A stretch of DNA of 64,000 nt from Flavobacteriaceae bacterium (GTDB lineage Bacteria; Bacteroidota; Bacteroidia; Flavobacteriales; Flavobacteriaceae), in NCBI GenBank assembly GCA_029238125.1, contig JAQWGQ010000005.1:1-64000 (forward strand), given 5' to 3'. This document shows, in pieces, positions 3,921-6,906 of this stretch. The notes under the pieces are model-generated. The model saw nothing but the letters and a program-made list of their open reading frames with translations, was not told the DNA's origin and made no database searches. Each line of letters opens with the position of its first letter. Position 1 is the first letter of the stretch. The position numbers and the translations under genes were made by a program.

Positions 3921-5369
3921 ATGAATAACCTACTACGTATCTTCTGCTATGGTTTTATTTTCCTTTTTATAAGTTGTGTTGAAAACGAAATCATATACTA
4001 TAATGTTGATGTAACAATTATCCCTGAAAACGCTGGGACAATAGATCCGCCAACCTTTGGACCTTTGTTCCCAGGGGATTCCATATCAATTTCCATCACA
4101 CCTAATGAAGGTTATCAATTTGATCAATGGACGGGAACAGTCTCTTCTTTTGAGCCAAACATTACAATCTTTGGCACAGAAGACCATCAACTTACCGCCT
4201 CGCTGGTGGAAACACCTGAATTGTCCGATCAAGTTCAGGTCTACAATGGCCCTCTAGTCGATCCCAATCCCATTTTTGCAGTTCGTTTAGGGGTAGCAAG
4301 TAGTGTGGTTATCAATAAACAAGGCATAATCGTCAATGAATATGAATTTGAAAACGACTTGGGTAATGATATTGAGATGCTGCCAAACGGAGAGTTCCTT
4401 GGAATGTTTAAACCAGATCAAATATAGGGTTTTACATTTGGAGGTGGTGGAGGTATTTTAAGGCGTGTCACTACTGACCAACAAACATTGTGGGAATACG
4501 AGATTGTTTCTGAAACAGAGCTAGCTCACCATGACTTGGAATTGTTGCCAAACGGAAATGTATTGACCATCGTATGGGAAGAGATAACGACAGAACAAGC
4601 AAAGACCTTAGGTGCTCAAACAGAACACCCCATATATACTGAAAAACTAATTGAAATCAATCCCGACAACAATGAGATCGTTTGGCAGTGGCGTAGTGTA
4701 GAGCATCTTGTACAAGATATTGACGAGACTGCAACTACTTTTGGATCGATTCGTGAAAACCCTCGTAAAATCAACATCAACTATAACAGTGACATGGATA
4801 ATGGTGACTGGATGCATGCCAATGGGATTGCCTATGACCATACCCGAGATCTGATTTTTATGACGGTAAATTTCTATGACGAAGTTTGGGTCATTGACCG
4901 AAGCACAACCACACAACAAGCCGCAAGCGGTGAAGGTGGAAATTATGGTGTGGGAGGGGATTTGGTCTATCGCTTTGGCAACCCTGCGGCCTATGGAAGT
5001 GAAACGCCTTCCATCTTTAATCGGGTTCACCACCCCAACTTTTCAAACGATAGCCATACCCAAATGCTGTTTTATAGCAATGGTGTTGATGCCGAGCAAT
5101 CTATCGTATTTGAACTACAGCTCCCGGAAACACTAGGTCTTGATGAGCAAAATGAAAACTTGCCAACAGAAGTGTGGCGCTTTACTGATCCCAGTCTCTT
5201 CAACCGCATTGTGTCTGGGGCAGTTAAACTACCCAATGGAAATGTACTGATTTGTGAGGGAGATTTTGGCTTTTGGGAGGTAACTCCTTCTGGACAAGTT
5301 GTTTGGAAAATGCAGGGCTATAAATCCGGATTTTGGCGTGCCTATCCACTAAATCCCAACTTTTTTTAA
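3921..5369 (+). pseudogene. ASST-like (arylsulfotransferase-type) lipoprotein interrupted by one in-frame TAG
   Basis: ORFs 3921-4427 and 4488-5369 are in the same frame; TAG at 4425-4427 is the only break (..MFKPDQI*GFTFGGGGGILRRV..). Lipobox-like FISC near the N-terminus; PNGEFLG/LPNGNVL repeats typical of the ASST beta-propeller. Confidence 0.7.
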
Positions 5370-5479
5370 ATTTATTTTTTGCAAGAAAACGCATAAAAAG
5401 TAATCAAAAATTCGATTTTTTGGTTGTTTTTGCTTCGTTTTGCGCTGTTTTTAGCCCAAAACTCCCAATCCCCCAAAAC

Positions 5480-5490
5480 GGGGGGGGGGG
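5480..5490. repeat. Poly-G tract (G11)
   Basis: Sequence ccccc-aaaac-ggggggggggg at 5470-5490. Confidence 0.95.
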
Positions 5491-5512
5491 TATTATTTAC
5501 AGACCAAATCCC

Positions 5513-5520
5513 TATATTTG
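5513..5520 (+). promoter_or_regulatory. Candidate Bacteroidetes -7 element TATATTTG
   Basis: Exact TAnnTTTG match 23 nt downstream of the G11 tract, upstream of the T9SS gene at 5642. Confidence 0.5.
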
Positions 5521-5641
5521 TAGTAGATAAACTTATATTTAACAGAAATGCCCCAAAGCACTCTCATTTTTTTATCGTTTTTCCGAACACAAATTCGTGA
5601 GTTTTTAGGGCTATTTTTTAATCTCTCTAAAACATATACTT

Positions 5642-6906
5642 ATGAACCCAATTCGATTTTTTACAACTAGCATTTTATTTTTTTCTTTTTCCATTCTGAT
5701 CGCTCAATACCCGCCAGCGAATAACACCTATCAAACAGCAACTGAGCTAAGCGTACAATCAGGTTCTTGTAGCACGCAAACAGAAGGTGACTTAACCCAT
5801 GCCACAAATAGCAATGGAAATGATTATTCGTCAGATTGCTTTTATTATATTTATGACGGAGCCAATCCTACATATGCCGATGTGTGGTATAAAGCGACTG
5901 TACCTGGCTCCGGAAAGCTTACTATTGAAACTTTTGCTTTTCTATAACGGATTCTCCTCTAAGGAGTGCTGTTCTTGTGGCGTATACTTTGAGTGAGGGT
6001 GTTCTTACGGAAATAGCTTGTGATGCTAATTATGCTGATAATGGTCGAGCTGCAAGCATTGAATTGTCAGGACAAGCCGAAAATACTGAAATTTATATTA
6101 TGGTAGTTGAATATCTTGATCAAAGGAATAATGATGACGGATATCGCGGTCCCTTTTACATTTGTGCTTTTGATCCTGATGGTGTCCAAGACCCGCCAGC
6201 GAATGACACCTATCAAACAGCAACTACGCTAAGCGTACAGCCAGGTCCTTGTAGCACGCAAACACAAGGTGACTTAACCCATGCCACAGACAGCAATGAT
6301 TCTGATTATTCATCAAATTGTCTTAGTGATTATTATGGAGGTGCTACATATGTCGATGTGTGGTATAAAGCGACTGTACCTGGCTCGGGAAAACTTACCA
6401 TTGAAACTTCTGAAGTATCGGGTTCTGCTACTAATAGTACCACTATTGTAGCGTATACTTTGAGTGAGGGTACACTTACGGAAATCGGTTGTGATTATTT
6501 TAGCGGCGTTGGTAGTGCATTTTCAAAACTTGAATTGTCAGACCAAGCCGAAAACACTGTAGTTTATGTTATGGTGACTGAATTTCGTGATTCAGCTGGA
6601 TACCACGACAATAATCGCGGTCCCTTTTACATTTGTGCTCTTGACCCTACTACTTTAGATTTTCCCCATGGCGAAAAACCATTGTTGTCGTACTACAGCA
6701 ATCCAGTGGGAAACCGCTTGTCAATCGAGAGTCCTTATCAAATCCAGTCTTTGGCCATCTACGACCTTGGGGGTAGAGAAGTACTGAGTAAGCAGCCAGA
6801 CAAACAAAAGCTAACCCTAGACACCTATTCTTTATCAGCAGGGGTGTATATGCTCAGCGTTCAAACTGCAGAAGGGGATCAAACGGTGAAGTTGGTTAAA
6901 AAATAA
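5642..6906 (+). pseudogene. Secreted tandem-repeat protein with T9SS type A sorting domain, frameshifted near 5938-5942
   Basis: ORF 5642-5947 and ORF 5977-6906 are in different frames but form repeat units 1 and 2 of the same architecture. Adding one T in gcttttcta restores ETFAFSITDSPLRSAVLVAYTLSEG. C-term YYSNPVGNRLSIES...YDLGGREVLS...LSAGVYMLSVQTAEGDQTVKLVKK is a T9SS type A tail. Confidence 0.75.
5710..6655 (+). repeat. Two tandem ~480-bp coding repeats
   Basis: cccgccagcgaat.acacctatcaaacagcaact at 5710 and 6192; gatgtgtggtataaagcgactgtacctggctc and cgcggtcccttttacatttgtgct present in both units. Confidence 0.9.

Follow-up and report, generated by a model that had tools for sequence, protein, structure and literature searches.

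A candidate inherited poly-G contingency tract at the predicted promoter of a frame-disrupted T9SS cargo gene in a flavobacterial genome

Surface variation in the Bacteroidota is known mainly through DNA inversion, and promoter switches made by homopolymers are established in Neisseria and Treponema. In Neisseria meningitidis, a poly-G tract lies between the -35 and -10 elements of porA, and a poly-C tract lies over the -35 region of opc (PMC7864442). For the poly-G promoters of Treponema pallidum tprE/G/J, tprL and tp0126, length variation and effects on expression have been measured (PMC7864442). Phase variation of the Bacteroides fragilis surface is brought about by DNA inversion of promoters (PMC4747536). 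Searches of a collection of open-access papers found no precedent for a promoter poly-G switch in the Bacteroidota. Might some flavobacteria nevertheless carry one?

The locus considered here lies in a 64-kb stretch of DNA, the whole of which was analysed and which we call the window. An arylsulfotransferase-like gene (3921-5369) is separated from the T9SS cargo gene downstream of it (5642-6906) by a gap with a run of eleven Gs, and the orthologous gap of a congener, G012, holds a run of fourteen. The features are as follows.

3921 to 5369, + strand: upstream arylsulfotransferase-like gene with an in-frame TAG at 4425-4427; its orthologue in G012 is intact
5470 to 5479, + strand: C5-AAAAC just before the G-run, able to pair with the first Gs
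5480 to 5490, + strand: G11 homopolymer, the proposed contingency tract, read directly from the sequence
5513 to 5520, + strand: TATATTTG, an exact TAnnTTTG -7 element of a predicted promoter, by consensus match
5521 to 5641, + strand: predicted 5' leader, akin by alignment to those of the tandem cargo genes in G012
5642 to 5947, + strand: 5' part of the cargo gene, with a signal peptide (by eye) and the start of a GBD_T9SS_assoc domain
5977 to 6906, + strand: 3' part of the cargo gene in another frame, with a GBD_T9SS_assoc repeat and a type A T9SS sorting domain
L067:2996-3009, in G012: G14 at the orthologous intergenic site

How does this arrangement compare with the described switches? As at porA and opc, a long G or C homopolymer is found at the promoter of an outer-surface protein, in the spacer or a -35-like region. 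Length-dependent transcription has been shown for those two genes, whereas switching in the window is predicted, the promoter here belongs to the -33/-7 class of the Bacteroidota, and the G012 tract lies upstream of the -33 box. The T. pallidum genes offer a likeness in their G-runs of about 7-11 adjoining the promoters of putative surface proteins, several per genome, and a difference in that the window gene is broken and lengths are known here across species only (G11 and G14). With B. fragilis the locus would share the switching of Bacteroidota surface-molecule promoters by a change in the DNA, as proposed here, but there the change is recombinase-driven inversion and not homopolymer slippage, and an unsystematic look at the present locus showed no segment flanked by inverted repeats.

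Along the DNA, CCCCC (5470-5474) is followed by AAAAC (5475-5479), G11 (5480-5490), 22 bp and then TATATTTG (5513-5520), exactly the letters and positions reported in the initial annotation. By the counts the tract is exceptional: it is the sole G or C run of at least 7 in the window, where the next-longest run is 6, and when the window was simulated 60 times with an order-4 Markov model, the longest G or C run was 6-9, never 11. The MAG that carries it (1.47 Mb in 38 contigs, 82% complete, the window being from contig C32) has five other G or C runs of at least 8, each exactly 8, and G11 is unique in the assembly.

The predicted promoter is recognized by its -7 element, TAnnTTTG being the flavobacterial sigma-A consensus (PMC9723704). 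Exact matches occur in the window about once per 2 kb per strand, and the chance of finding one within 36 bp of the tract is about 2%, a proximity that adds little alone, because some promoter ahead of the gene is expected anyway. Of the two Bacteroidota sigma-A elements, the -7 TAnnTTTG is present and the -33 TTTG or TTG, about 17-23 bp upstream, is absent. A scan for sigma-70-type promoters found none. The earlier placing of the tract at a plausible Bacteroidota promoter is upheld, G11 lying 22 bp from an exact TAnnTTTG in a promoter that is predicted.

Is the tract peculiar to this genome? The G012 locus (JAQWIL010000037.1) is intact, with the arylsulfotransferase-like gene, G14, three tandem T9SS cargo genes and an esterase, so the promoter tract ahead of T9SS genes that was proposed for the window recurs in a congener whose downstream genes are whole. 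The two G-runs are in register in an alignment of the intergenic regions and the flanking DNA has diverged; the tract is kept at the orthologous site with a different length, G11 in the window and G14 in G012, these being lengths from one short-read MAG per species that may be off by one base or more. Since G012 has only three runs of at least G9, two of which precede T9SS cargo genes, the chance of such a tract falling in the orthologous gap of about 300 bp is of order 6e-4, and coincidence is unlikely. We take the tract to be an inherited feature and no artefact, because the congener has G14 in the orthologous region though the surrounding DNA has diverged. A second orthologous pair, G8 in G000 (C35) and G9 in G012 (C6), lies just upstream of a promoter-like site; the gene there encodes an intact T9SS-tail protein in G012, and G000 shows a remnant of the tail only.

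Conservation of the tract at the cargo locus rests on one species pair, because the eight other congeners with a readable syntenic region show a remnant (G006, G008, G010), no locus (G001, G005, G009), or a contig end at or adjoining the cargo gene (G003, G011). The intact promoter with three tandem T9SS genes is found in G012 only, most congeners having an eroded locus or none. No G or C run of at least 7 is present at other arylsulfotransferase-like loci, among them one in a Candidatus Arcticimaribacter record (L117). The three tandem cargo genes of G012 (L067:3164-6592) have near-identical C-termini, related leaders and divergent central repeats. The single cargo gene of the window is most like the second of the three, and the difference between array and single gene suggests expansion and loss by recombination.

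The cargo gene of the window has its sorting domain (TIGR04183, 2.7e-12; PF18962, 3.4e-9), but tblastn with the second of the G012 genes finds its match in frame 1 as far as about 5938 and in frame 3 beyond. This puts the signal peptide and the type A sorting domain in different frames, and the window gene, disrupted near 5938, does not encode in one frame the intact surface-exposed product that G012 encodes. In the upstream gene the TAG lies in the context PDQI*GFTFGG, where G012 has PENRNGFSFGG, and both halves of that gene are otherwise well conserved. Neither the split of the cargo gene nor the upstream stop was seen in the initial annotation. Its proposal of a target for surface variation finds no support, as regards a live target, in the window genome, with one gene frame-disrupted and its neighbour carrying a stop. 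The frame change taken alone could be an assembly error. We favour a real decay of the locus, because of the in-frame stop in the neighbouring gene and the losses across the genus.

What, then, is the G11 tract? We tentatively prefer, with confidence just short of even, to see it as this genome's copy of a poly-G contingency tract that has been inherited at the promoter of a T9SS surface-protein gene or gene array. Slipped-strand replication would change the number of Gs in a tract that adjoins the RNA polymerase site, directly upstream of the -33 box in G012 and against or over the -33 position in the window. A changed G count would alter engagement of the promoter by RNA polymerase or a regulator, and with it transcription, and the length changes would thereby lead to stochastic expression of the surface protein. 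Three steps here are inferred: transcription from the predicted promoter, tract lengths that differ within populations, and expression that depends on tract length. Such length switching is plausible. As in homopolymer phase variation, a tract of at least about 8 residues adjoins a predicted promoter and is kept at an orthologous site with differing length. Counting against the contingency-tract reading are the frame-disrupted target, the unequal distance from tract to TAnnTTTG (22 bp in the window, 35 bp in G012) and the lack of a phylum-wide enrichment. What the window retains is probably a remnant or a recently disabled switch, since the target gene and the neighbouring gene are both broken.

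Sites with G9, then 10-40 bp, then TAnnTTTG were counted against a reversed control. With runs of at least G9, 301 family genomes gave 13 sites versus 4 in the control, and with runs of at least G11, 400 family genomes gave 5 versus 1. Across 393 phylum genomes the counts were 33 and 26, which is no general enrichment, and many of the matches were inside genes. The arrangement is rare and lineage-specific, and no rule of the phylum. The clearest lineage is the Flavobacteriaceae genus g24, with 8 sites versus 0 in the control among 20 genomes (reference G035). The g24 gap between tract and TAnnTTTG is clustered at 7-9 bp, in a layout of AT-rich TTAAC-type sequence, G9-G15, TAAA and TAnnTTTG (L205, L207, L208, L210, L104), mostly followed after about 50 bp by a short lipoprotein or a predicted secreted protein; one of the eight sites is inside a gene, and one precedes no correctly oriented gene. 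The g24 loci are strong candidates, on their layout, for poly-G promoter switches elsewhere in the family. Their tracts lie in the spacer, and the nearer analogues are porA and tp0126; for a tract placed upstream of the -33 box, like that of G012, the closest parallel is a poly-G outside the spacer, such as that of tprL, rather than porA (PMC7864442).

Similar tract and promoter pairs precede surface lipoproteins in other lineages too. Besides g24, genus g298 has three genomes in which paralogous lipoproteins of the SCNSPTEPK... type have a conserved promoter with G9-G11 just upstream of it (L144, L145, L189, L196), and in G252, also of the Flavobacteriaceae, a tract lies near TAnnTTTG before a lipoprotein or predicted secreted protein. 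G252 has 69 runs of at least G9 (L157-L186), in coding and intergenic DNA alike, and because it is tract-rich everywhere, with many tracts in coding DNA, its promoter tracts are weak evidence. Recurrence in other lineages makes a regulatory use plausible and is no proof for the window locus. In G035, three paralogous outer-membrane proteins of SusC-like appearance share a G9 at one in-frame position (L187, L190, L198), and these runs are a possible coding contingency tract.

Could the window tract instead be a neutral homopolymer without any part in regulation, lengthened by slippage where intergenic DNA is free of constraint and passed on to both species? We give this real weight, though we doubt it. 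Four of the six runs of at least G8 in the window genome are intergenic, some of them at places that are not promoters; congener G010 has an intergenic G12 beyond the end of a T9SS gene (L084); the locus is decaying; and the association with TAnnTTTG is absent phylum-wide. Against it, these genomes have almost no runs of at least G11, yet the same gap has one in both species between diverged flanks. Two of the three G012 tracts lie ahead of T9SS cargo genes, and the tract-promoter geometry of g24 is fixed, with its 8 sites against 0.

The initial annotation had a more specific model, in which the -33 position is taken by the G-run, whose length sets the -33/-7 geometry in the manner of opc or porA. 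This describes the window correctly: no TTG or TTTG is found at spacings of 15-25 upstream of TATATTTG, and positions 22-25 upstream are GGGG. The g24 promoters also place the tract between an AT-rich upstream element and TAnnTTTG. It does not describe the intact G012 locus, where the promoter is complete as TTTG-N20-TACATTTG, with exactly 20 bp between TTTG and the -7 element, and the tract ends 35 bp before TACATTTG, upstream of the whole promoter. The window is without a stretch matching the G012 -33 box, its tract abuts the predicted promoter, and the missing stretch fits promoter decay at least equally well. We consider the model improbable. Since in G012 the -33/-7 promoter is complete downstream of the tract, the G-run as -33 element is, as we read the two loci, not the ancestral design.

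Less probable again is that C5 and G5 form the stem of a terminator or hairpin belonging to the upstream arylsulfotransferase-like gene. A scanner does report a terminator-like stem at 5469-5488 (2 found, 0.5 expected), but beyond the stem come further Gs and a mixed tail, not a T-run. The DNA folding z of the region is -0.89 in the window and +0.19 in G012, where the C5/G11 hairpin suggested earlier comes down to 3 bp, no better than shuffles. The pairing not being conserved in G012, a hairpin or terminator role for C5 and the G-run was dropped. The window leader (5521-5641) contains a loose inverted repeat, GCCCCAAA...TTTAGGGC, followed by ATTTTTT. An inverted repeat GCCYCAAA ... TTTTGGGGC, then a T-rich stretch, is common to four cargo-gene leaders, that of the window (5540-5641) and those of G012, and is possibly a leader terminator or attenuator.

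An assembly or sequencing artefact from poly-G read tails is hardly credible, for although both genomes are metagenome assemblies, G-runs are error-prone and a contig-end G12 in G008 (L075) looks like just such an artefact, the window tract is inside a 147-kb contig and the G14 of a separate MAG is at the orthologous spot inside a 116-kb contig, which limits the doubt to the exact G count. Two runs in G007, G9 (L080) and G10 (L085), are inside otherwise conserved genes and apparently shift the frame; G-run counts in the congener MAGs are therefore unreliable or polymorphic.

Returning to the contingency tract as the preferred reading, does it extend beyond this locus? It is conceivable, though we hold the idea loosely and rather doubt it, that the marine genus of the window, g24, G252 and g298 independently phase-vary T9SS cargo and surface lipoproteins by means of poly-G beside or inside a -33/-7 promoter. 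If so, a slippage-based switch would stand alongside the invertible promoters known from Bacteroides. The window locus is a decayed example, and the G012 and g24 loci are the better test cases. If tract length controls the expression of T9SS cargo or lipoproteins, flavobacteria, both free-living and host-associated, would possess a second form of surface variation, one that needs no recombinase and may touch on phage receptors and adhesion.
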